Below, in pieces: positions 3,087-30,103 of a DNA stretch of 31,862 nt. The notes under the pieces are model-generated. The model made no database searches and was not told the origin of the DNA. It was given only the letters and a program-made list of their open reading frames with translations. Made by a program: the position numbers and the translations under genes. Where the stretch lies: positions 1 through 31,862 of IMG/VR virus record IMGVR_UViG_3300007558_000002; one strand, given 5' to 3'. Source of the DNA: a virus. Each line of letters begins with the position of its first letter. The first letter of the stretch is position 1.

Positions 3087-4631
3087 ATGGCTGGAACAAG
3101 TGGTAGCGAAACATCAGCTGCAGGTGTTGGTGGATATAAGATTAAAACAGACTGGTCAACTGTTATTATAGATGCTAACGGATCTCCTCGCCCTACAGCA
3201 AGAACTACAGTCAGAACGTATGTTATTGCACCAAGCAATAACTACTTTACTAACTACACCATAACTAGCTCTATAAAGGTTGGAAGCGTCACCCTGGCGT
3301 CAGCATCTCAACAGTATAGTACTAGTTACAATGCAACGCTACTTCTAGTTGAGAGCGTAGATAGAGACACTGACTATGCCTCAAATAGCGGTGGCACCTG
3401 GACAAAATCTTGGACAGTAGATGTCTCTGTAGATGGTAGCGGAACCAGTTCCGTTGTTCCTCAAAATATGACGCAGTCTTTAAGCGTTCCATTTGCCAAT
3501 GTATATACCGTCAGCTATGACGCTAATGGTGGATCTGTTTCAACATCATCTATTAGGGCTGGATCAGGAGATGGAGTAACCCTGCCCACCCCCAGCAGAA
3601 CTGGATATACATTTAACGGATGGTACAGTGCAGCATCTGGAGGAAGCTATCGTGGTGGGGCTGGCAGCTATTTTGCTGTAACCTCAACACAAACTTTATA
3701 TGCTCAGTGGACTATATCAACACCAGCACCTGTTTTCTGGGATACAACGCTCGGTGATTATTCTTATGGTGCATATAATAGTTCCAACAGGGTTCAGGCG
3801 TACGACACAAACTCTTATTCATGGACCAGCAAGCCGTCCTGGGCTACTGGAGGAACAAATGGATACCTTTCAGGAACACCAAACCAATCTGGCACTTTCT
3901 ATTGGTCAGTAACTGCAATTGGAGATGGTGGATCAACCCCACTTAATGGAAGTAGCTACGTATATTACCCAATACCTTCCTGGTCAGATTCATCCATGGG
4001 ATCATCTCTTCGTAGAGGAACATACTACAATGACTCAGTTTCTGCAACCATAGCCGATAGCTCAGCTATAACATACTCTTCTTCTGTGGTCAGCGGATCT
4101 TTAGTGTCTGGACTGAGCTTGGGTACAAACTCATTATCTGGTACTCCAACATCTTATGGATCTTTTACTGTAAGATTTTATGCAAGCAATTCAGATGGTG
4201 GTGCAACATCAATAGATAGAGCATTTACAGTGAGTGACTATTTTCCAGTATGGTCAGATCAGACAGTTTCAAGCGGAAACTATTCAGTAGGGCAGGCCTA
4301 CTCTGACTCTGTCAGTGCAATAGATGCTGCATACTACTCAGTATCTGGAACTCTTCCACCTGGAATAACACTGAATGTATCAACTGGACTACTGTCTGGA
4401 TCTTTTACAGCATCTGGAACATACGTCTTCACTATCAGAGCATATAACAACACAAGCGAGTATATTTCTACACCTACATACACAATGACAGTCTCTGATA
4501 TCGGAGGCAGGGTATATGTCTTCAATGGATCTATCTGGGAAGAAAAAGATATGATGTTCTATAACGGTAACTGGAACACACGTGGAACAGTATATTACTA
4601 TGATGGGTCGCAGTGGCAAAAATCAATATAG
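3087..4631 (+). CDS. Adhesin-like tail protein with InlB-type repeat and Ig-like domains
   Basis: The 514-residue protein begins 8 bases after the preceding gene with AGGGGA upstream. Residues 1-139 are an unrecognised beta-rich domain. Residues 140-209 match an InlB B-repeat/Listeria-Bacteroides repeat: TVSYDANGG, LPTPSRTGYTFNGWY and TLYAQWT. Then come three He_PIG-like immunoglobulin folds (about 213-296, 297-384, 385-471), each with an LSGTP or LLSGSF strand motif and a tail-like FTVRFYASN or FTIRAYNN strand. The last 43 residues are aromatic, with FNGSIWEE, YNGNWN and YDGSQWQ units. These domains belong to surface-adhesion proteins of bacteria and phage, so a host-surface binding role is inferred. 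It probably shares the transcript of the fibre gene before it. Confidence 0.75.
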   Translation: MAGTSGSETSAAGVGGYKIKTDWSTVIIDANGSPRPTARTTVRTYVIAPSNNYFTNYTITSSIKVGSVTLASASQQYSTSYNATLLLVESVDRDTDYASNSGGTWTKSWTVDVSVDGSGTSSVVPQNMTQSLSVPFANVYTVSYDANGGSVSTSSIRAGSGDGVTLPTPSRTGYTFNGWYSAASGGSYRGGAGSYFAVTSTQTLYAQWTISTPAPVFWDTTLGDYSYGAYNSSNRVQAYDTNSYSWTSKPSWATGGTNGYLSGTPNQSGTFYWSVTAIGDGGSTPLNGSSYVYYPIPSWSDSSMGSSLRRGTYYNDSVSATIADSSAITYSSSVVSGSLVSGLSLGTNSLSGTPTSYGSFTVRFYASNSDGGATSIDRAFTVSDYFPVWSDQTVSSGNYSVGQAYSDSVSAIDAAYYSVSGTLPPGITLNVSTGLLSGSFTASGTYVFTIRAYNNTSEYISTPTYTMTVSDIGGRVYVFNGSIWEEKDMMFYNGNWNTRGTVYYYDGSQWQKSI

Positions 4632-4659: not shown

Positions 4660-7600
4660 ATGTCACAACCATCTAATCTTTATGCAGAGAAAGTGTTTTC
4701 AGAACACCCAGTGGCATTGTGGGCTCTTGACGACCAAGTAGATTTCTTATCCTTCCTATCGTCAGCTGACAAAAAAATGTCTTCCTGGTCAATCAGCGGT
4801 GGGGAGTCATCTCTAGAGAGCCTTTCTGGTATAGCTAGACCGACAGAGTCACCAACAGTAAGGCTAGACGTCCAGGCATCAGATCAGTTAGTTGCAACTA
4901 GTAATGGAATTATTAGCCCTGTCTTGATGGATCAGAGTAAAGAAAACTTTAATATATCAACGTACGTTTACTCTCAGAATTCAGCAATCACATCTATTGA
5001 TATTGGCTACGAATATACTGATGGTAGTGTAATACAGGTACTGGAAAACTTTTCAATATCTGGCACTGGAGTTTGGGCATTTTTATCTAAGACCTTTGAC
5101 ATGCCAGATACAAATGAGCCATTAAGGTTGGTGGTAAGGGTCAATGCTTCTTCTATTGGGGACTATGCATTGTTTATTAATGGAATTTCATTTTCACAGT
5201 GGAGTGAAAACCAAAACACAAAAACCTCTGGAACTTCAGGAACAAGTCTTTATTCCCTCGCCCCAAGCATAGCCATCGCTGACCAGCCAGCAATTGAAGC
5301 TCCTGCATATGGTCTAAAAAGCAGTCCTGGATACTATCTAGCATCCGATAGCAGCTTGTTGTCGTATAACGATGGACTACCAATTGTGTATGGTTCATCA
5401 AATGCAACTAAAATTAGACAAAGTGATTATGGACCATCTCTCGTACTTCCAGGCTTCGGATTCTTAAATGATGTTGGTAGAAATAAGAACATGACTTTAG
5501 AGACATGGATTCGGGTTTCTACTTCGTCCTATACTCCAACAAGAATTTTAGGACCAATAGGTTCAGATGACGGACTATATGTAGATGGCCAATTTCTAAC
5601 ATTTAAGCTAGATAACCAGACAATGTCTCACTTTGTTGGAAGCTGGGGAAGACCAATGTTGGTTCACATTAGAGTAATTAGAAACTCTGTGTCAATGCTC
5701 ATCAACGGGGAGCTAACATCTTCAATGACGATAGATACTGATACGGTGACACTGCCAAGCTCAGACAATAACACTCTTTCATCTCTTTACTATGGCAAAA
5801 ACCAGGACTGGATAGGATTTTATGGGAGCAACGACCTATTGTATTTTGACATTGAGTCACCAGCCATATATCCATACTCTGTTCCAGAAATAGTTGCAAA
5901 AAGAAGGTTTGTGTATGGACAGGGGGTAGAGTACCCAGAAAGCAATAATAGCTCATTCGGAGGGTCCTCAGCCATCATTGACTACAGAAATGCTGGATAC
6001 GCAAATAACTACTTATACCCAGACATGGGTAGGTGGAACCAGGGAGTCGTAGAGAATCTATCTGTTGATGATAACGTCTTAACATCACCAGAATATCCTC
6101 TGCCAGAAATTATACTTAATAACACAGACAGAGAGTCGTGGCTAGAATCTAATCTCTCTGCTAACAACGACTCCACTGACCCAAGAAAGTTCATAAATCT
6201 ATCCTTAGATAACTCAGATGGAGGATATCTATTCTTCAATAGTCTGGCAGTGCTTAGGCAAGATCTTAAAGCACTTTACGTTGTTTTTAGATCCACAGAA
6301 GACTCTGACCAGACCATTCTTAAAATTGAAGATTCTGTAACTAAAAACTTTTTTAGCATTACTATCACTGGTACAGAAATTGTATATACTTTGAAGTATG
6401 GAGCTAACATCACAACGGTAACTTCTGAGTCACAGCATACAGTTGGATTGGCCACCACTGCAGGCATTGATATTGACAAGTTCTCTTCTGTATATGGTTC
6501 TAACATTGCTACATTCTTTGGAGCCAAGAGTACTCTAAAGATGTACGTAGGAGATGAGCCAGATTTTTCAAGTACATTTACTGGAAAGATATATCGTGTA
6601 GGACTATCTACAAAAAGAAACCTACAAAAAATATCTCAATACTTCAATAGCAGTGGAACGGTTGCAAACATAGAAAACGTTTTCGACCAGTATGATAGTG
6701 CAACAGAGCTATCTGGTGGAGCATATGATACAGAAATAACAGACTTCTTAGATGGTGGAGACCCAACATCATTTATAGCTAGTCAGCTTTATACTCATAC
6801 AGCAAGCTATACGGTATCACCAAGGGAGTACCTGGGGTATTTTGACATAGATATTGCAATAGATGCTTCTTGGCAAGACTATATTCCACTTCAGTACTTT
6901 GCTAAAACAATAACCGACGGCTCAGGTCAGTCATCGTATAGGCTAGATTATCTACAACTAAATGTTGACAACCCAATTGTGTATACACAAGCTGGCAATA
7001 GCTTTAACACTGATGGCTCTCCAGTCAGAACATATCTGTCTTTTCAATATATGGGAAGTAACCCCAACAGCCTATCTGAGAGCATACCAAATGCATTGCC
7101 AGCACCTGTAGATAAAGTAATTCAGCCAGGATTAGAATGGACTAATACCAGGTATGAGTTTGTAGACGGAACCGTTGTCTTCCCTCCAGAAGGCCAAGAC
7201 TTCTCCAAAATAGCTTTGGTAGTTCATATAGACGCTATCATCCCTGGAATTCAAAGCTCTAAGGTAATGATTAAGTCACTGCAGATAGCTTCTCAGGTAA
7301 ACGAGGTGTACAAACAAACACCAGTTGGAACTAAGCTTGGTAATGATGTGTACCCTTATGTAAAGAGTGGCATCTATAATGACTATAAGGCAAAAAATCC
7401 AATACAAATTTATAAGGGCACAAGCCCATACCTATACCTGACCGATGATGGAGGAATCAGGTTACTGGGCAGCACAGCCACTGATCGTGGAATCATGTTC
7501 CCAGTAAATCCAGAAAAGTCATTGTCTTATCGTGTCGGTGGCATCCAGCTATTTGCCAAGTATAACTATTCATCATTTCCGCAGGTAGCAGAAAAGATTC

Positions 7601-8193
7601 TGGAGATAGAGTCGTATAGAAAAACTATCTATGCTTATGTAGTTGCAGACAATACGTCTGGATCAAGAGGTAGGATATTCTTCACCGATGACTTGGGAGA
7701 GGCTGTTGGAGGTCTTTCTCTTTATGTAAATGGAAATCTTGTATCTTCGGGATACTTATTGCCAAACGAGTGGGCAGTGCTTTCCATTCAGTCAGCGGAA
7801 AGCCTAAACTTTGACTCATTTACTGGAAACATAAAGCTAGTTGGAAATCTATCTGTTGACTCTGTAGCTTCCTACAGGATCACATCTGATAAGACTGGTA
7901 TTACAAATAAGTTTAGAACATGGGCAGAGCTAGAAAGCATTCTCGATGCTGAGGGAATTAATCCAGCAACATGGGAAGACTTTCTTTCACAAGTTCCAGC
8001 TATTACTTGGGAAAATGTATTGTATATACCAACAACAAAACGGTATTTAATTGATTTAGTAGCAATATATAAAGCTTACATAGGCACAAACAAGTTTATT
8101 GTTGGAGATTCTAGCACTTTGTCCTTTAAAAATTATGCTTATCGTGGATATATTGGTGCAGAATGGAACACAAAGGTTGTTTCTCCAGTTTAA
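4660..8193 (+). CDS. Large minor tail protein with LamG/concanavalin-like domains
   Basis: The 1177-residue protein starts at an ATG with AGGAGA 3 bases upstream. The opening NLYAEKVFSEHPVALWALDD is typical of large actinophage minor tail proteins. Residues about 38-185 look like a jelly-roll carbohydrate-binding domain. Residues about 258-412 match a LamG/concanavalin A fold: NMTLETWIRV, a VHIRVIRNSVSMLINGEL strand pair and LYYGKNQDWIGFYG. A second, weaker LamG-like region spans about 510-660 (DLKALYVVFRS, KIYRVGLS). The rest is beta-rich with no recognised motif. LamG domains bind sugars, so this is probably a tail-tip or fibre component contacting the host envelope. It is the largest gene of the pre-portal block, and lies unusually far from the tape measure region where such proteins often sit. 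Confidence 0.8.
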   Translation: MSQPSNLYAEKVFSEHPVALWALDDQVDFLSFLSSADKKMSSWSISGGESSLESLSGIARPTESPTVRLDVQASDQLVATSNGIISPVLMDQSKENFNISTYVYSQNSAITSIDIGYEYTDGSVIQVLENFSISGTGVWAFLSKTFDMPDTNEPLRLVVRVNASSIGDYALFINGISFSQWSENQNTKTSGTSGTSLYSLAPSIAIADQPAIEAPAYGLKSSPGYYLASDSSLLSYNDGLPIVYGSSNATKIRQSDYGPSLVLPGFGFLNDVGRNKNMTLETWIRVSTSSYTPTRILGPIGSDDGLYVDGQFLTFKLDNQTMSHFVGSWGRPMLVHIRVIRNSVSMLINGELTSSMTIDTDTVTLPSSDNNTLSSLYYGKNQDWIGFYGSNDLLYFDIESPAIYPYSVPEIVAKRRFVYGQGVEYPESNNSSFGGSSAIIDYRNAGYANNYLYPDMGRWNQGVVENLSVDDNVLTSPEYPLPEIILNNTDRESWLESNLSANNDSTDPRKFINLSLDNSDGGYLFFNSLAVLRQDLKALYVVFRSTEDSDQTILKIEDSVTKNFFSITITGTEIVYTLKYGANITTVTSESQHTVGLATTAGIDIDKFSSVYGSNIATFFGAKSTLKMYVGDEPDFSSTFTGKIYRVGLSTKRNLQKISQYFNSSGTVANIENVFDQYDSATELSGGAYDTEITDFLDGGDPTSFIASQLYTHTASYTVSPREYLGYFDIDIAIDASWQDYIPLQYFAKTITDGSGQSSYRLDYLQLNVDNPIVYTQAGNSFNTDGSPVRTYLSFQYMGSNPNSLSESIPNALPAPVDKVIQPGLEWTNTRYEFVDGTVVFPPEGQDFSKIALVVHIDAIIPGIQSSKVMIKSLQIASQVNEVYKQTPVGTKLGNDVYPYVKSGIYNDYKAKNPIQIYKGTSPYLYLTDDGGIRLLGSTATDRGIMFPVNPEKSLSYRVGGIQLFAKYNYSSFPQVAEKILEIESYRKTIYAYVVADNTSGSRGRIFFTDDLGEAVGGLSLYVNGNLVSSGYLLPNEWAVLSIQSAESLNFDSFTGNIKLVGNLSVDSVASYRITSDKTGITNKFRTWAELESILDAEGINPATWEDFLSQVPAITWENVLYIPTTKRYLIDLVAIYKAYIGTNKFIVGDSSTLSFKNYAYRGYIGAEWNTKVVSPV

Positions 8194-15967: not shown

Positions 15968-16606
15968 ATGGCATATACACGTGGTTCGAGTACCAACATT
16001 ATCGTTGGTGCCGCATCTTTGTTTACGTACGGTACAACACTAACCGACGCAGACCTACCAGCCTACACTGCAGCTCAGTCATTCCGCGAGGATCTCTCGG
16101 ACGACCTTGACTTCACAAACGTAGGTTACACCATGAACGGTTTGGAGCTTCAGTTCCAGCCAGACTTCGGTGAAGTACAGGTTGACCAGGTTCTTGACGT
16201 TGCTAAGCTGTACAAGCAGGGCATGCAGGTAAACATGAACACAACTTTTGCTGAGGCTACTCTAGAGAACTTGCTAGTTGCAATTGCTGCATCTGACAAC
16301 GACCTATCTTCCCTTACAGGAACTGGCATCGGATCAAACTCTCAGGAGCTATTGATCAACGCTGGTAACTTGGGTGAGTGTCCAGTAGAGCGTGGACTTG
16401 TTGCTGTTGGTCCTGGTACAGGTGACTGTGCTCCAACAGAGCAGGTAGAGCGTGTCTACGTTGCATACCGTGCGTTGTCGATTGACAATGTTACAGTTTC
16501 TGCAAAGCGTGACGAGGCTTCTATGTTCGACGTATCATTCCGATTGCTACCAAACGACTCTGGTGCATACGGTAAGATCGTTGACCGCACAATCCCAGCT
16601 AGCTAA
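15968..16606 (+). CDS. Major tail protein
   Basis: The 212-residue protein forms the stacked hexameric rings of the tail tube. It has GAGGTGA 7 bases before the ATG. It begins MAYTRGSSTNIIVGAASLF, as expected for tube proteins that start with a strand and glycine-rich turn. It has a DVGY-like segment (DLDFTNVGYTMNGLELQF), a beta hairpin DFGEVQVDQVLDVAKL, and a C-terminal strand set with YRALSIDNVTVSAKRDEA and FDVSFRLLPND. Size and position (terminator before, chaperones after) are typical for siphoviruses. All eight arginine codons are CGN, consistent with a highly expressed gene. It has its own promoter and is followed by a terminator, so it is an independent transcription unit. Confidence 0.9.
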   Translation: MAYTRGSSTNIIVGAASLFTYGTTLTDADLPAYTAAQSFREDLSDDLDFTNVGYTMNGLELQFQPDFGEVQVDQVLDVAKLYKQGMQVNMNTTFAEATLENLLVAIAASDNDLSSLTGTGIGSNSQELLINAGNLGECPVERGLVAVGPGTGDCAPTEQVERVYVAYRALSIDNVTVSAKRDEASMFDVSFRLLPNDSGAYGKIVDRTIPAS

Positions 16607-16630
16607 TAGCTGCAAATATAACTTAATAGA

Positions 16631-16661
16631 ACTGCCCTGGCTACGGCTGGGGCAGTTTTTT
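16631..16661 (+). terminator. Rho-independent terminator after major tail gene
   Basis: ACTGCCC (16631-16637) pairs with GGGCAGT (16650-16656) around a 12-base loop, followed by a run of six T residues (16656-16661). This is the clearest terminator in the window. It abuts the next promoter directly: the last T of the run is the first T of the following TGCTATAAT box. Confidence 0.85.
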
Positions 16662-16669
16662 GCTATAAT
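16661..16669 (+). promoter_or_regulatory. Extended -10 promoter TGCTATAAT (leaderless)
   Basis: The perfect box lies 5 bases before the long chaperone ATG at 16675, so the transcript should begin at the start codon. The GGAG at 16670-16673 is only one base from the ATG, too close to act as a ribosome site. Confidence 0.65.
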
Positions 16670-16674
16670 GGAGT

Positions 16675-17355
16675 ATGGCCAATAAAGTGTATGAGAGCTC
16701 TACTGTAGAGTTAATTGACGGAACCCAGATTTATATTACCCCACTAAAGATATTTTACCTAAGAGATTTTATGTCTAAGTTTTCAGAAATAGAAAATGCA
16801 TCCACAGAAGATGAAAAGATAGATGTTCTCATTGAGTGCGTTGCCTTTGCTATGAATCAGTTTAGACCAGAGATAGCATCCCCAGAATTAGTAGCTGATA
16901 GTATGGACATAAAAACGATGTATAAGGTTGTAGAAATTGCTGGAGGAATCTCCTTTTCAGAGAAAGCCGAGAGTGGCTCCAAGCCAGTTGGTGAAGGCTC
17001 TGGCTCTAGCTGGGAAGAACTAGATTTAGTTAAGCTAGAATCAAAAGCATTTTTGTTGGGAATCTGGAAAGACTTCTATGAGCTAGAGACCTCAATCTCC
17101 ATGCCAGAGCTTATTGCAATATTGGAGTCTAAGAGCGAATCAGACTATGCTGATAAGAAGTTTCTTGCAGCTATCCAGGGGGTAGACTTGGAGAAGGATC
17201 AAGGTAGACAGGATGAGTGGACAAAGCTAAAGGAAAAGGTGTTCGGCCCAAAGAAGACAGAGGAGCAGGAAAACGATGTCACGTCACTGACAGGTAAGAA
17301 GGCTGCCGATGCTGGATTTGGCATTGGAATGGGGCTTTCCTACGAGAAACTCTAG
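16675..17355 (+). CDS. Tail assembly chaperone, long form (G-T type)
   Basis: The 226-residue protein has an N-terminal domain (1-95) that closely matches the next gene's product, including LIDGT, PLKI, LRDF, KF and CV-xx-AM-xQ. Its C-terminal extension runs SSWEELDLVKLESKAFLLGIW, MPELIAILESK and KKFLAAIQGVD, and ends KAADAGFGIGMGLSYEKL. That pattern matches the T extension of siphophage chaperones normally made by a -1 frameshift. Here the full long form is one uninterrupted frame. The start is confirmed by alignment with the paralog. It lacks a usable ribosome site, and all three arginine codons are AGA, both suggesting low output. Such chaperones bind the tape measure protein and recruit tube subunits. 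Confidence 0.85.
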   Translation: MANKVYESSTVELIDGTQIYITPLKIFYLRDFMSKFSEIENASTEDEKIDVLIECVAFAMNQFRPEIASPELVADSMDIKTMYKVVEIAGGISFSEKAESGSKPVGEGSGSSWEELDLVKLESKAFLLGIWKDFYELETSISMPELIAILESKSESDYADKKFLAAIQGVDLEKDQGRQDEWTKLKEKVFGPKKTEEQENDVTSLTGKKAADAGFGIGMGLSYEKL

Positions 17356-17373
17356 TAAAAACAAGGCTCTGTA

Positions 17374-17382
17374 TGGTATAAT
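17374..17382 (+). promoter_or_regulatory. Extended -10 promoter TGGTATAAT
   Basis: The perfect box lies in the gap between the two chaperone genes, 37 bases before the ATG at 17420. The leader would carry the strong GAGGAG site at 17411-17416. The short chaperone therefore has its own promoter and could be made at a different level from the long one. Confidence 0.65.
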
Positions 17383-17419
17383 TAGTAATCACAACAAGTG
17401 GTAAAAGGAAGAGGAGACA

Positions 17420-17746
17420 ATGGCTACAACCGTTAACGAAAACAAGGTTCTAAAGCTAATTGATGGGACAGAGATTAACGTTCGCCCGCTAAAGATCTCG
17501 TTGCTTCGTGACTTCACAAAGAAGTTCGAGGACATCGCAGATGTTGCAGACAACAATGAAAAGTCAATGGATATTCTCATGGCTTGTGTCCAGATCGCAA
17601 TGAAACAGTATAACGCTGATCTTGCAGGAGACATCAAAGCACTAGAGGATAATATAGATCTACCAACCGTCTATAAGATCATTGAAGAAGCATCTGGCAT
17701 TAATATGACAGAAGCTTTAGGTGGTAACTCTCTACCTAATAAGTAG
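17420..17746 (+). CDS. Tail assembly chaperone, short form (G type)
   Basis: The 108-residue protein is homologous to the N-terminal domain of the preceding gene, about 40% identical by eye over some 95 residues, and lacks the C-terminal extension. This equals the short G product that most siphophages make from the same gene as G-T before a frameshift site. There is no downstream open frame with T-like sequence before the tape measure start 22 bases later, so the pair appears split by gene duplication. It has its own promoter and a strong GAGGAG ribosome site 3 bases before the ATG, and both arginine codons are CGN. It is predicted to act with the long form on the tape measure protein. Confidence 0.85.
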   Translation: MATTVNENKVLKLIDGTEINVRPLKISLLRDFTKKFEDIADVADNNEKSMDILMACVQIAMKQYNADLAGDIKALEDNIDLPTVYKIIEEASGINMTEALGGNSLPNK

Positions 17747-17768: not shown

Positions 17769-20700
17769 ATGGCTGATATCAGGTCTAATATACAGGTAAA
17801 TATTGATACCGCTAATGCGTTATCAGCTATCAAAAATCTGCAAGCTCAGATATCAGCTTTTCATACCAGCATCCGCAATTCTGGAAATGCTGCCAATAAA
17901 GCAGTCTCAGACAATCTTACAAAAAATCTTTTAAATTCAGTTAATGCCACAAAGCAGTTTTCTGGCAGCTTAACTACGATTAGTGACAGGGCCACTAGCT
18001 TCACAAATGCCCTTGAAAAGAACAAGTTTTCCCTAGGCCAATACTTCAAGTATGGTGCTGCTACATCTAAGACTTTCAGCAGGGCATTTAGAAAAGAATT
18101 TGACACCATTGAGCTTGTGGCACGTGAGCGTGTCAAGACAATGCAGACACAATTTATCTCTCTTGGTAAAACTGCTAATGGTGCAATCGAGGCAATTAAG
18201 GTAAGACCTCTTACACTAGACATGGATAACCTTGGAACACAGGTTGCTATGACTGCACAGAAGCAGCAAATCTTTAATCAGCTACTTAAGCAGGGATCTA
18301 CAAATCTTCTAAACTTTGGTAAGAATACACAGTGGGCTGGTCGCCAGCTCATGGTTGGTTTTACCCTACCACTAGCAGTTCTAGGTTCTTCAGCAATGAA
18401 GACATTCCAGGAGATGGAAGAACAGGCTATTAGGTTTAAGCGTGTGTACGGTGAGCTATTCACAACTGAGGCTGAAACCGAAGCAATGACCAAGGAGCTT
18501 CAGAAGCTAGCATCTGAGTTCACAAAGTATGGAGTATCAATTGCCGATACCATGGGCCTTGCTGCTGACGCAGCTGCCATGGGTAAGATGGGTGCAGACC
18601 TAACTGCTCAGGTAGCAGAGGCAACTAGGCTAGCAGTTCTTGGTGGGGTAGAGCAGGCAGACGCACTTGAGACGACTATCTCTATTACGAATGCCTTTGG
18701 TGTTGCTGCAGAAGATCTTGCTGGAAAGATTGACTTCCTAAACGCAGTAGAAAACCAGACTGTAACTGCTATTGAAGATTTGACAATTGCAATTCCTAAG
18801 GCTGGACCAGTTATCCAGCAGCTAGGTGGAAGCGTAGAGGACTTGGCCTTCTTCCTAACAGCTATGAAGGAAGGTGGCATCAATGCTTCAGAGGGTGCTA
18901 ACGCACTAAAGTCTGGTCTTGCAAAGATGATCAACCCTACTGCAAAAGCAACAGAGATGCTCGGTGGCCTTGGCATTAACATTAATGGTATCGTAGAGGG
19001 TAATGCAGGAGACATCAAGAGCACCGTAATTCAATTTGCTCAAGCTTTAGATACATTAGATCCCCTGAACAGGGCCAGAGCAATTGAGGAGCTATTCGGA
19101 AAGTTCCAGTTTGCACGTATTTCCACACTATTCCAAAACGTTGTAGCTGAGGGTAATCAAGCACAAAGAGTTCTACAGCTAACTCAGGCAACCTCACAAG
19201 AGCTAGCCATCCTGAGCGAGAGAGAGCTTCAGAGAGTAGAAGATTCTCCACTCTACAAGTTCCAGAAGTCAATCGAGGACTTGCAAAAAGCACTAGCTCC
19301 AATTGGACAACAGTTTGCCGAGCTTATTACTCCAATCGTAAAGTTTGCAACAGACCTTTTAGATAAGTTTAATAATCTAAGTAGTGGAGTCAAATCATTT
19401 ATTACTGGAACTATAGCTACTCTAGGACTTCTTGCACCAGTTGCCCTAATGGTATTTGGTCTATTGGCCAACGGTGTTGCCAATATCATAAAGGGATTTG
19501 GCGTTGTAAGATCCTTGTTTATTGGTGTTTCTCAGGCTGGTACAGGGCTATCAGCCTCCATGGGATACATGACCCAAGAACACTTAGAGGCAGCAACCTC
19601 TGCAAACTCATTGGGTGCAGTACACAGTAACCTAATAAATATCTTTACTTCTGAGCAGGGTGCCATATCCAACCTCAGAGTAGCATATGAGCAGGCAACA
19701 ACTGCCATAAATAGATTTAATGTTGCATCTGGAACCAGGGTAGGCAAGGCACCAAACGGAAAGGGCGGCCTGAAGCTTGCTAGCGGAATTGTATCAGTGC
19801 CAGGTCCAAAGGGTGCTGGAGACATTGTCCCTGCCATGCTTTCTCCAGGAGAAGCAGTTATTCCAGCAGACAAGGTACAGAAGTACAGCTCTCTAATCTC
19901 TGGCATGATTGCTGACAATATCCCAGGATTTGAAAGGTCTAACGTTCAGGTTAAGGGGGCTACTTTAGCTGTAGGCGGAGCAGAGTTCTCGTCCTCTTCG
20001 CCAAAAGCAGCAGCAGAGCTTGCAAGGACAATAGATAAATTAATTGAGGCCGCAAAGCTTCTGGGTCTAAGTGCTGAAGAGGCAGAGCAGGTAGTCGTTG
20101 CGTTAGCAAAACAGACCGAAGCAGAGTCAAAAAATAAGAAGATTACAAGCGAGTCTCTTCGTGCACAAGAAGAGAAGCAGATGGGCGGCGGACTAGGCCT
20201 TGCAGGAAATAGAACGGTTGGTGTAAGAGAGGCTCTTGAAAAAGATAGACTAGTGATGGGCAATGAGGGCGTGACCCTTTCCCACGCAGGCACCCCAGTT
20301 CCACTAAGCAATGAGCAGCGTCAGAAGCTAGCTGCCCAGATGTCTCCAGGAACAAATAGGGATAGAGTTCTTAATATGGGTAAGGGACTTAACGCTTATA
20401 GCGAAGAGGTTTTCCCAACACCAGCAATCCTAAACGCCAAGGGTGGAATTCTTTCAAAGGGACAGGCCGCAGACATCATTAGAGAAAACCCAGCAGGGCT
20501 GGCAGCAGATGCTGCTCAAGCAGCAGGCTTAGATCCAAACTCCCCAGCCTTCAAGCAATTTGGACAAAATGTTGCTGACGAGCTAGCAGCAGATGCAAGT
20601 GCAGCCTTTAGCGATATGGACCTTACACCAGCGGTAAACAAGGCCATCGATAAGATGGAAGACAGTGCTGAAAAGAGAGTGCTGCAAGATCGTAAAAAGA

Positions 20701-23700
20701 CATTCCGTACTCTCGGTGGTGGAAAGGGAGAAAAGAGGTTTGGTCTAGCAAAGGATGTGGCCCTAGATATTGGAGATGGCAGAAAGATTGAGGGCGGACC
20801 TAACTACATAGATAGAAGAGATAAGAAATCCTCAGAGGCAAGGCTTGCAGAGCACAAGAAGGCAGACAAGGCAGTTATTGCTCTTGCAAAAGCAAGGATT
20901 AAAGAAGCAGAAAAGCAAGGTAAAGCAGAGGGCACTGCAAATGGAAAGGCATTTGCTAAGGCAAGGAAGCAAGTCCTAAAGAAGGAAAAAGACAGCTACG
21001 TAGAAACAAGGGATAGAAAGAGCCCTCACCGATTAGCACCCAAAGACGGTGCCGACGACGGTAAGGCCTACGGTAAAGCACGCAATAAGGCCCTGTCAGC
21101 AGAAGACAAGAAGATAGCTAAACAAGCTGCTGCACAAAAGAGATCTGGCAGGGCAGGAAAAGCATTCGGTATTTTGGGAACTGCAACCATGGTCGCTGGC
21201 ATGGCTACTCAGGTAGGTGGCCCAATAGGAGAGATTGCAGGCAAGGCTATGCAGATTCTCCCAGCCCTATCAGCAATTGTTCCTGCTCTACTAGCTTTGC
21301 CAGCACCGATTGCTATTGCCGTTGGTGCAATTGGACTTCTGGGATTCACACTATTTAAGCTACATGAGGGTCAGAAAAAAGCCTCAGAAGCAGGAAGAAA
21401 GCTTGCTGACTCGTTGGCTGCAGGTGCTGGTGCCATGGATGACTTCTCGAAGTTTGCTGGCACGGTAAACCCTACAGAGCTAATGGCCAGAACTAGAACA
21501 TCACAGTTTGGAGATATTAATGTCAAGACTGGAAAGACAGAGTTTGGAGAGAACTATCTAGCCTCTGACCCTGGGAAAGAACTTGTAACAAGCGTAGAAG
21601 AGGGCATGCTAAAGCTTGGAAAGTCTCCTACAGTATCTAGGGTAGTAACTCAGCTAGGTCAGGCCGTCGCCAGCAATATTCTGACCAAGGAGCAGGCATC
21701 TAATATTGTTTATGCTTTGGGAAACCAGCTCGGAGATAGCACCTTTGCACTTAGTGTGAACGGCCAGCTTAACGAGCTACTAGGACCAGACGGAGAAAAT
21801 ATCCTGACCCAGGGCCTAGAAATTCAGGTAAGACTAAATGAAAGGTCTCTCAACTCAGTCATTGGCCCAACTGGTAGCCTAACGCAGCTATTCTCAGAAG
21901 GTGGCGGAGCAGAGAGGAACTGGCTTACTGGAATTATTGGTAACGTAGACTGGAAGAAGCTTGGAAACCTGGAGGGTCAGGTAGCTGGAGAAATTAATGG
22001 TGTAGTTCAGCAAATCGCACTAGGCCTAGACACACTTGACGCAAGGTACTTAAAGCAAATTCAAGCACTGAAGGATAGCGGAGATCTTACTGGTGCACTT
22101 TCAAAGCAGAAAGAGTATGAGGAGGCAAGGGCAAAGCTAATCGCTTCTAATGAACAGATGAGCAACCAGCTTTTTGGAAGGATTACAGAAATTGAAGAGA
22201 GATATGATAAAGCTCTAAAGTCTGGTTACGCTGTAGATGCTGGTCTTATGACACAGTATCGATCAATCGAAGCAGTCGTAAATCAATCAGAAGAGCTAGC
22301 AAAAGCCTTCTTTGACGGAAACGAAGAAGCAAAGAAGCTAATAGAGACTCTGTCAAACAGCCTTGTTCTCAGTAGTGAAACAAAGCTAGTATTTAATGCA
22401 GCCCTGGCTAGTGATACTCTAAGCATTGATGCCGCCAAGGCCATCCTTGAGGGTGATCTTAAGTCTACAGAGATTGAGCTAGTAGCAGACATGATGATCA
22501 AGTATGGTGCAGGAACTGGTCAGCAGATGGCAAATATTTTGTCTATGTTTACTGGAGATGCAAATGCTGCACAAAAGAAATCAGACTTCTTGCTAATGAT
22601 GGATTCTCAATCAACAGAAGAATTCAATAGGGTTCTCAATCTTCTAGATATGGTTACTGCATATGAGGGTGCCATCGGCAAGGACGGAAAACTAATCTTT
22701 GACGCCTATATGAAGGATCCAAAGAAATTAGAGGCATTGCTAGGCAAGCTAACAGAGCTTAATGACCTAGCTGATGGAAACAAGCTAGAGTATGACGTAA
22801 TTATTAACACAGATATTCTAGGGTCAGATGGACTGGCTGCCCTAAAACAAGATGCAGAATACTTCAAAACACTAGACCCAGTACAGAGATTCCTATACAT
22901 ACAGACCATGCTTACTGTAGAAGGAACCTATTCTAATTCAGATGTAGACTCATTCCTAGCATCTAAGGGGATAAAGCCAGGCGGCTCATCACTGAGCTAT
23001 TCTCCAGGAGCTGATCGTGCTATTACTACTGGTAGATATACTGCAGCCCAGAGAACGCAGGGCATTCTAGATATGATGGCACGAGATGCTCAGAAGATAA
23101 CGGAAGCAGCAACTACCAACATTGTTACTGGTGAGGAGACGGAGCCTACGGACACAGGCACTGGATCAAAGAGTGACCCATTCGCAAACATCTTAACTAG
23201 GCTAAAGCAAGTTAGGAATGCTGCTATAAACGCTGCAGGTGGCGTCGCAGAGCTTATGAGAGTTCTTGGCAAGGGGAAAGAGCTAACACTATTTAAGGGA
23301 ATAAGCCAACAGCTTACATTTGCTGGGTACGGAAAAGAGTTCTCTTCATACATCTCTGGACTAGACGAAGAGACTAGATCTAAGTTTGTTTCAATTGAAA
23401 ATGGAGTTGTCAAGGTAACTGCAGCAGGTAAAGCAATGAGCAGGGCCTTCTCAGAGGCAGCACTTGGAGACTACCAGCTATCACTTGTTCAGGGTGTGTC
23501 AGATATCAATAAGCAGATTCAGGCTGTAACCACCCTAACATCCAGAGGCCTATCCCTTAATGATTCTTATGAAATTGCTAGCGATGCAAACCTTGCCTAT
23601 GCTATAGCCACAGCTGCTACCACAGAAGAGGTAGACGAGCTAATCTTTAGATTCCAAAAATTGCAAGAGGCACAAGAGAAGTGGGCAAACACAACACCAG

Positions 23701-25115
23701 AGGGAATTGAGCAAGGTCTTTCAAAAGCATTTGCATCTATCAAAGAATTCTTTGCAGCCCAGGAAGAGGCTGTCAACCTAGCTTTCCAGTCAGACACCTC
23801 ATACCTGACGAATGCTACAGATGGTTTAATCACAAAAGCTGCTCAGGAGATAGAGGACTACCAGTACCTACTCGACGATTTGAACTACGAGCTGGACGGC
23901 ATAGCTAAGCAAGAAGATGCTATCAACAAGAAATATGACGAAAGAGTTGAAGCACTTAATAAGGTATACGAGATCAATGCAGACCTAGCAAGCCAAGAAA
24001 AGGGTAAGCTAGATATTGCCTCTGCTTTGGCATCTGGTGACATTGCAGCTGCAGCCAGGGCAATTCAGGAGCAAAGAAGGCAGCAGGCAGAGCAGCAAAG
24101 AAAGAAGTCGGAAGCGATTCTTGAGGCATCTCGTCAGAAGGAGCTAACATCCGTTACCTCTTCAAACAACAGAACCAGGCTTGATATTGAAAACGAGATT
24201 AAAGATATTACAGAGAAGATCGCAGTTATTGAAGAAGAAAGACTGGAACCAAACCAGAAGCTACTCAAGGATGCAGAACGACTCAGAGATGTAAACCTAG
24301 AAGCTATTGGTAACGATGGATACTTGAACAAGACCAAGGCCGAGTGGGCTCTAGTAGAGAATGGAATCAGACTTGCCAAGGTAGAGTCAGAGGGATATTC
24401 TACATCGATTTTGGCAGCAATTAGCAACATTGAGAAGCTTAAAGCACTTTATAATGACCCAGCAACATTTACTGCAAAGTTGCCAGAAGACTTTAACCCA
24501 GTTTCCCAAAATCCAACAGCTACAGATTCTGGATCTTCTAGCACTTCTGGATCCAGCAGCTCCTCTGGTTCGTCTACAGACCCTGACCCAACTTCATCCA
24601 AGGATCCAGGCCCAATGCCTCCATATAATCCAGGTACTGGTAAATACTGGAAGCTTAAGAATAACAAATGGACTGCAGCAACTATACCACCAAAGCCAAG
24701 CTACACTCCTCTCAATACCTACTGGAAGTTTGACACAGCCAAGGGACAGTGGACATCGGTAAAGAAGACAACAACCACTACATCTGGCGGCGGCGGAGGA
24801 AGTGTAATGTACCGCTCCACTGGTGGAATGGTTCCAAAATACTTTGCAGCAGGTGGGTATGCTCGGGGAACAGACACAGTCCCAGCAATGCTGACCCCTG
24901 GAGAGTTTGTTGTGAGAAAATATGCTGTAGATAAGTTTGGAGCAGATAACCTCAAAGCAATTAATAGTGGTGCAAACCTAGGTGGAACCATGTATAATAG
25001 TTATGAAGTAAATGTCAACGTTAAGTCAGACTCTAACCCAGATCAAATTGCCAGGGCAGTCATGAATCAGATTAAGCAAGTTGACTCACAAAGACTAAGG
25101 AGTAATAGGTTCTAA
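17769..25115 (+). CDS. Tape measure protein
   Basis: This 2448-residue protein sets tail length. I chose ATG 17769 because GAGGTG lies 8 bases upstream, whereas the ATG 4 bases earlier is followed by a stop after three codons. Residues about 205-410 are the TP901-type tape measure core (ADTMGLAADAAAMGKMGAD, GGSVEDLAFFLTAMKEGG, GININ). Hydrophobic helices lie near 543-587 and 1160-1198. VPAMLSPGEAVIP near 690 recurs as VPAMLTPGEFVV near 2372. The middle (about 790-1150) is Lys/Ala/Gly-rich and basic. Residues about 2021-2185 form a long charged coiled coil, then a Ser/Pro-rich linker (about 2250-2345) with two YWK-type motifs. At about 0.15 nm per residue the tail would be near 367 nm. No lytic domain is recognised. 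Confidence 0.95.
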   Translation: MADIRSNIQVNIDTANALSAIKNLQAQISAFHTSIRNSGNAANKAVSDNLTKNLLNSVNATKQFSGSLTTISDRATSFTNALEKNKFSLGQYFKYGAATSKTFSRAFRKEFDTIELVARERVKTMQTQFISLGKTANGAIEAIKVRPLTLDMDNLGTQVAMTAQKQQIFNQLLKQGSTNLLNFGKNTQWAGRQLMVGFTLPLAVLGSSAMKTFQEMEEQAIRFKRVYGELFTTEAETEAMTKELQKLASEFTKYGVSIADTMGLAADAAAMGKMGADLTAQVAEATRLAVLGGVEQADALETTISITNAFGVAAEDLAGKIDFLNAVENQTVTAIEDLTIAIPKAGPVIQQLGGSVEDLAFFLTAMKEGGINASEGANALKSGLAKMINPTAKATEMLGGLGININGIVEGNAGDIKSTVIQFAQALDTLDPLNRARAIEELFGKFQFARISTLFQNVVAEGNQAQRVLQLTQATSQELAILSERELQRVEDSPLYKFQKSIEDLQKALAPIGQQFAELITPIVKFATDLLDKFNNLSSGVKSFITGTIATLGLLAPVALMVFGLLANGVANIIKGFGVVRSLFIGVSQAGTGLSASMGYMTQEHLEAATSANSLGAVHSNLINIFTSEQGAISNLRVAYEQATTAINRFNVASGTRVGKAPNGKGGLKLASGIVSVPGPKGAGDIVPAMLSPGEAVIPADKVQKYSSLISGMIADNIPGFERSNVQVKGATLAVGGAEFSSSSPKAAAELARTIDKLIEAAKLLGLSAEEAEQVVVALAKQTEAESKNKKITSESLRAQEEKQMGGGLGLAGNRTVGVREALEKDRLVMGNEGVTLSHAGTPVPLSNEQRQKLAAQMSPGTNRDRVLNMGKGLNAYSEEVFPTPAILNAKGGILSKGQAADIIRENPAGLAADAAQAAGLDPNSPAFKQFGQNVADELAADASAAFSDMDLTPAVNKAIDKMEDSAEKRVLQDRKKTFRTLGGGKGEKRFGLAKDVALDIGDGRKIEGGPNYIDRRDKKSSEARLAEHKKADKAVIALAKARIKEAEKQGKAEGTANGKAFAKARKQVLKKEKDSYVETRDRKSPHRLAPKDGADDGKAYGKARNKALSAEDKKIAKQAAAQKRSGRAGKAFGILGTATMVAGMATQVGGPIGEIAGKAMQILPALSAIVPALLALPAPIAIAVGAIGLLGFTLFKLHEGQKKASEAGRKLADSLAAGAGAMDDFSKFAGTVNPTELMARTRTSQFGDINVKTGKTEFGENYLASDPGKELVTSVEEGMLKLGKSPTVSRVVTQLGQAVASNILTKEQASNIVYALGNQLGDSTFALSVNGQLNELLGPDGENILTQGLEIQVRLNERSLNSVIGPTGSLTQLFSEGGGAERNWLTGIIGNVDWKKLGNLEGQVAGEINGVVQQIALGLDTLDARYLKQIQALKDSGDLTGALSKQKEYEEARAKLIASNEQMSNQLFGRITEIEERYDKALKSGYAVDAGLMTQYRSIEAVVNQSEELAKAFFDGNEEAKKLIETLSNSLVLSSETKLVFNAALASDTLSIDAAKAILEGDLKSTEIELVADMMIKYGAGTGQQMANILSMFTGDANAAQKKSDFLLMMDSQSTEEFNRVLNLLDMVTAYEGAIGKDGKLIFDAYMKDPKKLEALLGKLTELNDLADGNKLEYDVIINTDILGSDGLAALKQDAEYFKTLDPVQRFLYIQTMLTVEGTYSNSDVDSFLASKGIKPGGSSLSYSPGADRAITTGRYTAAQRTQGILDMMARDAQKITEAATTNIVTGEETEPTDTGTGSKSDPFANILTRLKQVRNAAINAAGGVAELMRVLGKGKELTLFKGISQQLTFAGYGKEFSSYISGLDEETRSKFVSIENGVVKVTAAGKAMSRAFSEAALGDYQLSLVQGVSDINKQIQAVTTLTSRGLSLNDSYEIASDANLAYAIATAATTEEVDELIFRFQKLQEAQEKWANTTPEGIEQGLSKAFASIKEFFAAQEEAVNLAFQSDTSYLTNATDGLITKAAQEIEDYQYLLDDLNYELDGIAKQEDAINKKYDERVEALNKVYEINADLASQEKGKLDIASALASGDIAAAARAIQEQRRQQAEQQRKKSEAILEASRQKELTSVTSSNNRTRLDIENEIKDITEKIAVIEEERLEPNQKLLKDAERLRDVNLEAIGNDGYLNKTKAEWALVENGIRLAKVESEGYSTSILAAISNIEKLKALYNDPATFTAKLPEDFNPVSQNPTATDSGSSSTSGSSSSSGSSTDPDPTSSKDPGPMPPYNPGTGKYWKLKNNKWTAATIPPKPSYTPLNTYWKFDTAKGQWTSVKKTTTTTSGGGGGSVMYRSTGGMVPKYFAAGGYARGTDTVPAMLTPGEFVVRKYAVDKFGADNLKAINSGANLGGTMYNSYEVNVNVKSDSNPDQIARAVMNQIKQVDSQRLRSNRF

Positions 25116-25774: not shown

Positions 25775-28700
25775 ATGTTTCAAAATACAGATCTTGAGTC
25801 CTACCTAACAACATCATCAACTGTAAGCAGTGATAGTCTTGTGTCTGCAGAATGGAACATGAATATTGCAGACAACATCCTGCAGGTTGGTAACTATAGA
25901 TATAGGCCCTCGGAAAGAGCTTCCCTGCCAGCATCTGCACAGTCTATCTATGCCGTAGCCAACAATACTTTTGATAGCGATGACGTAGGGAATTACTATA
26001 CTGATGCAACTTATTCAGACATAGTCATTGATGGCGGATTCGATGATGACGATACACCCACAACCTTTAAGTCTAGAAGGCAGAAGGAGCAGATGCTCTA
26101 TTCTCTCGAAGACTGCTTGGGAAGATTTAGGCCACGTTCAGGTATCAATAAGATTAGATATTTTAACAATAACTTTATTCACTTTGCTAATAGCAGTATG
26201 GCAACTAGGCCAAGATATTATATGGGGCACAGGGACGACAAGTTTAAATATTGGACATCCTATCGCATAGATGATAACGTCGAACGTGGTATTGGAAATC
26301 AGTTAATAAACGGTTCATATTACATAGACGATGCAGCACCATTTGTTGTGTATAAAAATCCAATTCCTGCAAACAGGCTTGTAGTAAAAATGCAAACCAA
26401 TGTTGGAGGATCAGACCTAGGACCCTTCTACAGCGGCTCAGGGGCCTTCTCAGACCCTTTCTACGGTGACCAGAACATGACAGTACCCTCTAAGTGGTCA
26501 GTACAATACCTAGATAATGATATTTGGATAGATGCCATATCGTTTAGTGAAAGCTCAACCAGAACAGATGGCTCAAGAATAATTAAATCAGACGGCTATG
26601 TTGAGCTACAATATGGCGTAATCATTCCAGAAAAATATAAGAATTCGTTTTTCCTTGTTGGAGAAATCTTTTCTGAAAAAGTGTTGCCAGAAACAGCTGC
26701 AGATGGTCAGTCTTATCTAGTTAAAAGACCAACTGACGTCACTGGAACATTTTATATATGGCAAGATTCGTCAGGCTCCTTCGAGTCATTTTCTCCAACT
26801 TTTGGCTGGAGCCTGGTAGAAGATGAGTCAGCTAATAATGTGTCAAATTTTGTTAACACTTTGGTATCTCCACCAGAATACACTGACCCAGTAAGCGGAC
26901 GTTCTGGTTATACAGAATTCCAAGAAATATCTGGAATAAGAATCCTGGTAGATACTATGAATAAGTCGGATGCAACCTTTGATCTAATTGAGATGTCTCC
27001 AAGACTAGTGGCAGACTTGACAGATATGACAAAGTCTTTTACAGTAAATAAAACTGCTTCAGATCTAGGGGTCACTGGATTGCCAGTAGGTCAGCTTCTA
27101 GCATCTACGGGTAGCCTAGAGCTGTTTGATACTGAACTAGCATTTAGCTCGGTAAATTCAGACAGCATAATTCAAAGCTTTATATCACAAAACTTACAGA
27201 TAAAGCTATATGATATTATTAAGAATTTGGATGGGTACAAGTACCACGTTCCACTAAAAACATTTTACGTAGATGGCATGGCAGAGACAAATGTGCAGAC
27301 AAGGTCTACAGACCTAGTTTTAAGAGATCTATTCTTTCACCTAGAGTCAATTTCAGCACCAGAGCTAATGATACCAGATACCTCTCTAAGCTATGCAATA
27401 TCTACAATCTTGGACTATGTTGGTTTTTCAAACTACACAATTAAAATGCTTGATGGTCAAGCAGAGCCTATCATTCCATATTTCTTTGTAGATTCAAATC
27501 AGACCCTAGCCGAGGTCCTAGAAAGCCTGGCGGTTTCAACACAAAGTGCCATGTTCTTTGACGAATATAATAACTTTGTAGTGATGACAAAAGAGTATCT
27601 AATGGCAAGTGAGGGCGATCGGTCTACAGACATAACGCTGCTAGGCAGCCGAGACTCTCAGGCTGCAGGTGCTTACAAGAACCTGTCAAACGGATTATCT
27701 AAGGCAAACATTATAGAGATTGCCTCTAAAGAAAACCGTGTATACAATGATGGAATTGTTAGGTATACTCCAAGGTATATTCAGAAAAACTACAAGAACA
27801 TTGGATCTGCAGACAAGTTACAAAGGGACATTAACTGGGTATACAAGGCATCAGAGCTTTGGGAGGTAGCCCCAGAAAGCAGTGTAACTTCACAGAATGA
27901 AACACTTGGAACGCAAGAGTCTTATACGCTAGGGGCATACCCAATCAATTCGGACATCCCATCCTCAGAGCCATCAGTATACAATGGTGCAGTAATCAAT
28001 AACACAATTGACATTGGCGAAGCAGTCAACTTCATGGCTAGGTATAGCGGTTACCTGTATGCAAATGGAGAAATTATTAAGTTTGACGCTGTTCAGTATA
28101 GCGTGCCAGGACTGTCGGAAATAGAGTCAACCGATGGGAATGTTTGGATTACAAGTGTAAAAGATTACCAAAAGTATTTTGCAAAGATTCCATTTAACGG
28201 AAAGATGTACCCTACTGGTTTGGTTAGAATATTTACAGAGCCAGAGTACGAAGTCGTCGATGGAGTGACAAGGCTTAAGCCAGGTTCAATAGCTAGAAAT
28301 GGAAGAGCCCAATTTGGTACACAGATTACAGAACACTCTGCAGGACTAGATTCATATTGGCATGACAACGCTAATGTTAAAGGCTGTAAGATGCGTGCCA
28401 ATCTCATATTCGGCATTGAGGATTCTAGCAATATAACTGCAGGCCTACGTGGCGTAACACTAGAAAGCGGAGCAGCTGGAACCGATAGAGCTGTCGGTGT
28501 TGCAAGCTCTAGGAATGGAATTATAAAGAATTATCTAGCATCTAACTTTCCAAAAGATGTAAATGTTGATAGGCTACTGTCAACACAGACAGGAACTGTC
28601 CAAGCATCAGCACTAGTAATGACTGGTGGAAACTTTGCCAGTACGCAAGACCCACTTAATTATATCTCCTATGTTCACAAGCCACTGTCTGATAACTTCA

Positions 28701-30103
28701 AACATTTTGGGACTAGGCTTAGGATTGTTGGCAAGAGTCAGAACAATGAGATAAACTTTCAGACGCCTTATGGAAGCACACCATATTACAATGGAGTTAG
28801 CGGCGGTAGTGCAGGCCTCGCATGCCTGATCAATCCAGAAACTAACAATGGATACTACTACGAAATTATAGCACTAGACACTGTTGACACAAAGAGTATT
28901 GAAAATAAAGACTCAATGTTTAATATTGTATTCTACAAAATTATGAAAGATGCCACCACAGGCGAGGCAGTGCCAGTAATGCTTTGGGGAGGAATCACAA
29001 AGATAACGGTAGATAGCGGTGACTTCGTAGGTCAGTATAGAATGGTGGCAGAGGAAAATCCTAGCGTATATGATCTAGCGGTAGAGTATGAAGATATCGG
29101 CACGACAAGAACCTTTTACCTTTATCTAAATAATAAGCTTATCAGAACTGTAAATGATCTAAGTCCACTGCCAGTATACAATAACATGGCACTATTTATA
29201 CGTGGAGCATCTCGTGCAATGTTTGAAAATATATATGCTATCGGATCAAACTATTCTCAAAACCCATCTTTAGCAGTTGATCTGCCAACGAGCACAGCTT
29301 TTAGCTCAGGAGAGATAAGCCTCAGCGAGTCATTCAGAAAGTACTCAATGAGCGGCATCGTGCAATCTACAGTGCTGTCTGGTATAAGTCCAGCAGAAGA
29401 TCCTAAGTACAACCTATACTTTGATGAGTTTGGAACAATTATGAGAGAGGCTGCTTACTTTAATGTGAGATATGAAAAGGCATATCCAGCACTATATGCA
29501 AGACTAGCACCAACATTTAATAGGATTAAGACATATACCGTCTCTGGCTTTATGGCAGGGGCATATGGAGCAGAGTTCATGGTATTTAACGCAACTGACT
29601 CTACCATAGACCTAAGCGAAAATAGCGGAAACTATCTTAAGATTCAGGGAATTGCATTCACCCAAAAGTCATCTAATGAGTTAACCGTGGACTCACATTT
29701 TTCCAATAGAGGATCATTTTATGATTCGGCAGTATCCAATGATCCAGAGAGCATTTCTCCAATTGTCTCTAGAGAAGAATACAACAGAATTAAGAATAGT
29801 CGGATTAAGTATGGTAAGAATGAGTTTGTCTTAGATGCATCCTACATCCAAAGCCAGGACGCAGCCTCTGACATGATGGAATGGATTGTGTCAAAAATAA
29901 TGAAGCCTAGAGCTTCCCTTGGAATAAAGGTCTTTCCTAATTCCATGATCCAGCTTGGAGACATCGTAAAGATTGAATACAAGTCAGACTCGGGAAAGGA
30001 CCTTGCGATTGATTCCACTAAGCGTTTTGTAGTATATAATATAGAATATTCCAGAATGTCTTCTGGTCCAGAAATGACGTTGTATGTAAGCGAGGTGTCA
30101 TAA
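25775..30103 (+). CDS. Large tail hub-like minor tail protein with inserted lectin-like domain
   Basis: This 1442-residue protein begins directly after the previous stop with GAGG 5 bases before the ATG. Residues about 383-610 resemble the hub core of siphovirus tail tips (KSFTVNKTASDLG, NLQIKLYDIIKN, a DLVLRDLFFHLESI helix, ILDYVGFSNYTIKML). Residues about 1334-1442 carry the familiar hub C-terminus, with FVLDASYIQSQDAA, MKPRASLGIKVFPN, IQLGDIVKI and VVYNIEYS. Between them, residues about 977-1157 look like a concanavalin-like/DUF1080-type lectin fold (HFGTRLRIVG, YYYEIIAL, LYLNNKLIRTV, FENIYAIGS), probably a sugar-binding insertion. Arginine codons are mostly AGR: 11 of the first 14. No lytic active site was recognised. 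It presumably forms the tail tip and contacts the host. Confidence 0.8.
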   Translation: MFQNTDLESYLTTSSTVSSDSLVSAEWNMNIADNILQVGNYRYRPSERASLPASAQSIYAVANNTFDSDDVGNYYTDATYSDIVIDGGFDDDDTPTTFKSRRQKEQMLYSLEDCLGRFRPRSGINKIRYFNNNFIHFANSSMATRPRYYMGHRDDKFKYWTSYRIDDNVERGIGNQLINGSYYIDDAAPFVVYKNPIPANRLVVKMQTNVGGSDLGPFYSGSGAFSDPFYGDQNMTVPSKWSVQYLDNDIWIDAISFSESSTRTDGSRIIKSDGYVELQYGVIIPEKYKNSFFLVGEIFSEKVLPETAADGQSYLVKRPTDVTGTFYIWQDSSGSFESFSPTFGWSLVEDESANNVSNFVNTLVSPPEYTDPVSGRSGYTEFQEISGIRILVDTMNKSDATFDLIEMSPRLVADLTDMTKSFTVNKTASDLGVTGLPVGQLLASTGSLELFDTELAFSSVNSDSIIQSFISQNLQIKLYDIIKNLDGYKYHVPLKTFYVDGMAETNVQTRSTDLVLRDLFFHLESISAPELMIPDTSLSYAISTILDYVGFSNYTIKMLDGQAEPIIPYFFVDSNQTLAEVLESLAVSTQSAMFFDEYNNFVVMTKEYLMASEGDRSTDITLLGSRDSQAAGAYKNLSNGLSKANIIEIASKENRVYNDGIVRYTPRYIQKNYKNIGSADKLQRDINWVYKASELWEVAPESSVTSQNETLGTQESYTLGAYPINSDIPSSEPSVYNGAVINNTIDIGEAVNFMARYSGYLYANGEIIKFDAVQYSVPGLSEIESTDGNVWITSVKDYQKYFAKIPFNGKMYPTGLVRIFTEPEYEVVDGVTRLKPGSIARNGRAQFGTQITEHSAGLDSYWHDNANVKGCKMRANLIFGIEDSSNITAGLRGVTLESGAAGTDRAVGVASSRNGIIKNYLASNFPKDVNVDRLLSTQTGTVQASALVMTGGNFASTQDPLNYISYVHKPLSDNFKHFGTRLRIVGKSQNNEINFQTPYGSTPYYNGVSGGSAGLACLINPETNNGYYYEIIALDTVDTKSIENKDSMFNIVFYKIMKDATTGEAVPVMLWGGITKITVDSGDFVGQYRMVAEENPSVYDLAVEYEDIGTTRTFYLYLNNKLIRTVNDLSPLPVYNNMALFIRGASRAMFENIYAIGSNYSQNPSLAVDLPTSTAFSSGEISLSESFRKYSMSGIVQSTVLSGISPAEDPKYNLYFDEFGTIMREAAYFNVRYEKAYPALYARLAPTFNRIKTYTVSGFMAGAYGAEFMVFNATDSTIDLSENSGNYLKIQGIAFTQKSSNELTVDSHFSNRGSFYDSAVSNDPESISPIVSREEYNRIKNSRIKYGKNEFVLDASYIQSQDAASDMMEWIVSKIMKPRASLGIKVFPNSMIQLGDIVKIEYKSDSGKDLAIDSTKRFVVYNIEYSRMSSGPEMTLYVSEVS

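Follow-up and report, generated by a model that had tools for sequence, protein, structure and literature searches.

A stretch of viral DNA of 31,862 nucleotides (nt) (IMG/VR record IMGVR_UViG_3300007558_000002, hereafter the window) carries two related genes between the major tail protein (MTP) gene and the tape measure protein (TMP) gene, which is the usual place of tail assembly chaperones. The first gene (16675..17355) encodes a protein of 226 amino acids, hereafter long, and the second (17420..17746) a protein of 108 amino acids, hereafter short; both frames are intact, as the original prediction had noticed, and stand 64 nt apart, and all of the features of this locus are on the plus strand. 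The upstream neighbor (15968..16606) is assigned to PHROG 2175 with a weak match to the major tail protein family phrog_885, and its position is that of the annotated major tail protein in the phages Coruscant and Emma1919. The downstream neighbor (17769..25115) encodes the tape measure protein of 2448 amino acids (PF10145 PhageMin_Tail, E 1.6e-24). Few recoding events in phages are as conserved as the −1 frameshift of tail chaperone genes, for which the usual explanation is that the short and long products must be made in a fixed ratio. Chaperones of the gpG/gpGT type are made with the short form in large excess, bind the tape measure and the tail tube, and leave the virion. The original prediction suggested that in the window a duplication has replaced this recoding.

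Long and short align over 106 amino acids with 41% identity and 64% positives (BLASTP, E 3e-26), in agreement with the roughly 40% first judged by eye, and both match phrog_10504 (E 4e-19 for long and 1e-16 for short). Only long matches phrog_10474, via its C-terminal part, which upholds the claim that the T-type extension is confined to it. Long thus consists of an N domain (residues 1 to ~98) that runs on in the same frame into a T domain (16993..17352), the latter being about 50% identical in alignment to the T domain of frameshifting relatives, where it is the −1 frame extension; short has the N domain without T. That N and T fall into separate PHROG families is expected if the reference phages encode them in two frames. 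In the AlphaFold models of the two proteins, the N domains share two strands and a helical bundle, and a Foldseek search with the long model, which is of moderate confidence, retrieved N15 gpGT (E 6.5e-4, probability 1.00, TM only 0.36/0.33) besides other tail chaperones. Pfam has no family for either protein and the sequence and fold searches of the PDB found no relative, with nothing there for short; hence, the naming is founded on position, on the PHROG matches, on the Streptomyces phage relatives that are annotated and on the match in fold to N15 gpGT. Long and short are most likely the GT-type and G-type tail assembly chaperones of a long-tailed actinobacterial phage. In lambda, gpG and gpGT are present at about 30:1, this ratio matters, and the N domain binds the tape measure while the T domain binds the tail tube protein (PMC5009743); by analogy, the N and T domains of the window may have the same partners.

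We then compared the locus with its relatives. Among annotated phages, tblastn matched 127 Streptomyces and 3 Rhodococcus phages. The annotations of Emma1919, NiceHouse and Francesca show the chaperone as joined by a frameshift, and in Coruscant T lies in the −1 frame and overlaps N at its end. Scans of IMG/VR yielded hundreds of relatives. The first 242 loci comprise 190 in which a fused N-T gene precedes a separate N gene and 47 in which a single N gene is overlapped by a −1 frame T; the remaining five show part of the locus only, and none has a mixed layout. From these, a non-redundant set of 135 relatives was used in the analyses below, of which 106 are two-gene and 29 single-gene, the latter including cultured Streptomyces phages, and 37 further two-gene loci, unused in forming the idea of leaderless expression, served for validation. 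Intermediates, either a frameshift gene accompanied by a short gene or a fused gene lacking one, were absent from all fetched loci except contigs cut at their ends. With frameshifting relatives beside the two-gene group, the claim that duplication replaced recoding is tested here by comparison.

The recoding signal itself differs between the two layouts. In the single-gene relatives, an in-frame heptamer of the form X XXY YYZ is found in 28 of 29 genes against 7.8 expected from synonymous shuffles, about 30–40 nt before the G stop codon (GGGAAAC in 13, CCCAAAC in 12 and CCCAAAT in 3), and a later scan of 53 distinct frameshift loci, overlapping with the first set, found it in all 53. GGGAAAC and CCCAAAC/T occupy the same codon in these single-gene relatives (e.g., L042 and L131) and largely track sub-clades, which is indicative that the heptamer switched while its position stayed fixed. 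The same stretch of the short genes has a heptamer in 4 of 106 (6.1 expected) and the junction of the long genes in 28 of 106 (23.5 expected). Both are at the chance level, and the recoding signal is therefore gone from long and short alike; in the window, the short gene has no in-frame X XXY YYZ. Two findings had been named as contrary to the original prediction, a functional slippery site and N domains that are not homologous; neither holds, as the N domains are homologous and a conserved slippery site is absent from both genes.

The 5′ regions of the two genes are of opposite types. Between the MTP gene and the long gene of the window lies an intrinsic terminator (16628..16661), a hairpin followed by a T run, with a folding energy of −23.7 kcal/mol (z −6.6), and a terminator-like hairpin with a T run stands at this place in all 106 two-gene relatives. 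At its end is an extended −10 element, TGCTATAAT (16661..16669), 5 nt before the ATG of long. A simple sigma-70 scan of the window listed neither promoter nor terminator at 16628–16669 because the scan demands a −35 element and its stem rule passed over the hairpin; these calls are based instead on folding and on conservation in the family. The long gene of the window lacks a usable Shine-Dalgarno site (the GGAG there stands 1 nt from the ATG), and it alone among the 22 genes of the window has this leaderless geometry. Two other starts in the window, at 4660 and 30587, have extended −10 elements 14–15 nt before the start codon, for which very short leaders are predicted. In the family, the extended −10 (TGnTAnnnT) of the long genes ends 5–9 nt before the ATG, most commonly 6 nt, and the geometry is present in 91 of 106 by a strict score and 103 of 106 by a looser one (0.4 and 2.6 in shuffles). 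It is found in none of 106 short, 29 single-G, 90 MTP and 91 TMP genes, and at the validation loci in 36 of 37 long and none of 37 short genes. Bacterial transcription starts about 7 nt downstream of the −10 element, and with the spacing observed the long mRNAs should begin at or beside the ATG. The long mRNA is thus predicted to be leaderless, as had been suggested for the window, and the geometry behind the suggestion proves to be conserved.

The short gene of the window has its own extended −10 element, TGGTATAAT (17374..17382), a leader of about 30 nt and the Shine-Dalgarno sequence AGAGGAG (17410..17416) 3 nt before the ATG, which bears out the separate promoter and strong ribosome site first described. 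All of the short genes have a TGnTATAAT-type promoter at least 23 nt upstream, with a leader of about 20–40 nt, and the single G genes are alike. The complement to the Shine-Dalgarno sequence is at least 4 nt in all 106 short genes; in the long genes it is at most 5 nt and mostly 3 nt or fewer. An exact TATAAT is present at the −10 of 101 of 106 short genes vs. 26 of 106 long genes. The two-gene layout with opposite expression signals was found in more than 140 relatives, in a group of uncultured viruses.

Codon usage divides the two genes along the same line. The arginine codons of the window pair are AGA in long (3/3) and CGN in short (2/2). With only five codons, this split could have been chance, which is rejected by the family-wide test: the share of AGA and AGG among arginine codons is 9% for MTP, 28% for short, 82% for long and 68% for TMP genes, and the adaptation of codons to MTP usage is higher for short than for long in 106 of 106 genomes (p 4e-19). 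Codon adaptation of G also exceeds that of T in 25 of 27 frameshift relatives, which indicates that codon usage follows the expected expression there as well. Elsewhere in the window, the TMP gene and a tail gene of 1442 amino acids (25775–30103) have AGA/AGG for 78–79% of arginines, and the capsid and tail tube genes have CGN arginines. Arginine codons may mark the expression level in this virus.

These observations suggest the following course. The ancestor would have made both chaperones from one gene by −1 frameshifting, and this gene would have been duplicated once. The copy on the TMP side would have kept the promoter, leader and ribosome site of the G type and lost the T part with the slippery site, and the copy on the MTP side would have become a fusion of N and T in one frame, with transcription starting at its ATG from the promoter ahead of it. 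Initiation and codons would now keep short in excess over long, with a −10 close to consensus, a leader, a Shine-Dalgarno site and favored codons on the side of short, and a poorer −10, neither leader nor Shine-Dalgarno site, and arginines encoded by AGA/AGG on the side of long. Two mRNAs would result: the leaderless promoter would give one that spans long, short and the TMP gene, and the short promoter one that spans short and the TMP gene. The actual transcript starts and the short:long protein ratio are what we infer here. In Mycobacterium smegmatis, mRNA and protein were both lower from leaderless reporters than from leadered reporters (PMC7148126). We consider it most likely that duplication replaced recoding and that promoter, leader and codons set the ratio. 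We also lean toward the fuller statement, that this lineage replaced frameshifting by duplication and obtains the ratio from a leaderless, weaker-promoter, AGA/AGG-rich long gene and a leadered, strong-promoter, common-codon short gene, which would be a conserved use of leaderless expression in fixing stoichiometry. The observation of the original prediction is confirmed and its interpretation is largely right; its view that expression is tuned toward an abundant short form finds indirect support in the leader type, the −10 quality and the codon usage.

The origin of the pair was analyzed in trees that include the frameshift relatives. The N domains of long form one clade (support 99/92) and the short proteins another (100/98), with the single-gene G proteins adjoining short. 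Mean pairwise identity between genomes is 71% for short and 54% for the N domain of long; the single-gene G is 60% identical to short vs. 45% to long N, and long N and short of the same genome are 42% identical. Short, being slower-evolving and closer to G, seems to descend directly from G. A single clade of long and short is not rejected (p-AU 0.535). On the concatenated MTP and TMP tree, 44 two-gene viruses fall in one clade together with two frameshift viruses, and neither MTP (p 0.755) nor TMP (p 0.307) by itself rejects a single clade of two-gene viruses. The T-domain tree had given four changes between the two states, a count we set aside since that tree has 120 columns and many unsupported forks, and MTP and TMP gave two. 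The trees are compatible with a single origin, and a single duplication with some module exchange since then would account for them.

Several results weigh against the duplication and its proposed effect on the ratio. The AlphaFold models are of moderate confidence (pLDDT 68 and 71.5). The spacing between −10 and ATG in the long gene of the window is 5 nt vs. the common 6 nt, and transcription could start inside the AUG. Genome-wide in M. tuberculosis, leader status has no systematic effect on protein per mRNA (PMC7148126), so that leaderless need not mean weak. Under a mixture model with fewer rows, the N-domain tree supports short with G (98/99) and places long outside; the N-domain tree gives no proof that long and short are sisters, and short could stem from a related phage. 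Finally, the two frameshift viruses on the MTP and TMP tree, L085 and L095, are nested within the two-gene clade; they adjoin the two-gene virus L214, possibly through module exchange or a return to frameshifting.

Conceivably, then, short was acquired from a related frameshifting phage as a xenologue and the resident gene was afterward fused into long, with no tandem duplication. Both N-domain trees place short with the G proteins and long outside, and tail modules do recombine, as L085/L095 and L146 suggest. Nevertheless, the tree with long and short in one clade is equally likely, the faster evolution of long can pull it outward, and a tandem copy fits the gene order; we regard acquisition as a possible but unlikely origin. 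A second proposal accepts the paralogues and gives them different functions (e.g., long only starts assembly), with the leaderless promoter setting timing and not amount. The divergence of the long N domain from short within a genome agrees with it and a separate promoter would permit separate timing, but no conserved terminator-like element lies between long and short, the two promoters share the extended −10 type, and the codon split points to amount, which leaves this proposal doubtful. A hidden frameshift or internal start that still gives a second product from one gene is very improbable, as the one in-frame heptamer of the window long gene, CCCAAAG at gene nt 573, is late in the T domain and unconserved and the junction heptamers are at the chance level. 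That one frameshifted gene was misassembled as two is a concern with metagenomic contigs, but it can practically be dismissed here, as three other contigs carry the identical pair and more than 140 diverged, independent relatives have two complete copies each, about 42% identical to each other.

The nearest cultured relatives infect Streptomyces and Rhodococcus, and WhiB genes are present in 15 of 15 large two-gene contigs; the host is probably an actinobacterium. A scan of genome contigs matched no relative, and hence reached no host genome or prophage. Away from the tail locus, the window encodes a protein of 514 amino acids (3087–4631) in which Pfam recognizes a Listeria-Bacteroides repeat and a putative Ig domain, possibly an adhesion or decoration protein, and upstream of the portal gene a protein of 1177 amino acids (4660–8193) with a weak match, below the cut-off, to the carbohydrate-binding family CBM_4_9.

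The pair resembles the frameshifted gpG/gpGT systems of lambda, of Stanwilliamsviridae (e.g., Emma1919) and of the Rhodococcus phages NiceHouse and Francesca in its position between MTP and TMP and in its short and long products, and its N and T domains are homologous to those of the Streptomyces frameshift phages. Unlike these systems, the group of the window has two genes with separate promoters, no slippery site and a long gene predicted to be leaderless. According to the PRFect paper (PMC10274946, citing Vladimirov, Gautam and Davidson 2022), some T4-like phages have a short chaperone gene plus a longer, fused one with no frameshift, an arrangement which, as described there, is that of the window group. 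The original prediction had ranked the pair as the most unusual point of the window; the layout is real, but the claim of rarity has to be qualified, with such a precedent in T4-like phages and with the layout common in its own virus group, and we dropped the idea that the arrangement is categorically new. In T4, the pair is presumably gp26 and gp51, which are weakly related to each other (E 2e-6) and divergently transcribed. The genes of the window, on the other hand, are in tandem, and frameshifting sisters with the same domains are known for them. The window proteins have no detectable homology to gp26 and gp51 (hhalign probability <1%, BLASTP E 0.045), so that the T4-like and window cases look independent. 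The Microbacterium cluster EA phages, also actinobacterial siphophages, have two tail chaperone open reading frames reported to be separately expressed with no evident frameshift, and their description (PMC7302621) does not mention a full N-T fusion or a duplicated N domain in the long protein. Our literature search found no report of a leaderless chaperone gene paired with a leadered one.

Two sister groups that apply different solutions to the same proteins offer a natural experiment on the means by which a critical protein ratio is fixed. Their comparison lets one ask what the frameshift is for, be it the ratio, linked timing or co-translational assembly. The pair is also a clean case for the question whether actinobacteria and their phages use leaderless mRNAs for low output. 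The locus is a caution as well, since a chaperone pair that lacks a slippery site need not be an annotation error.
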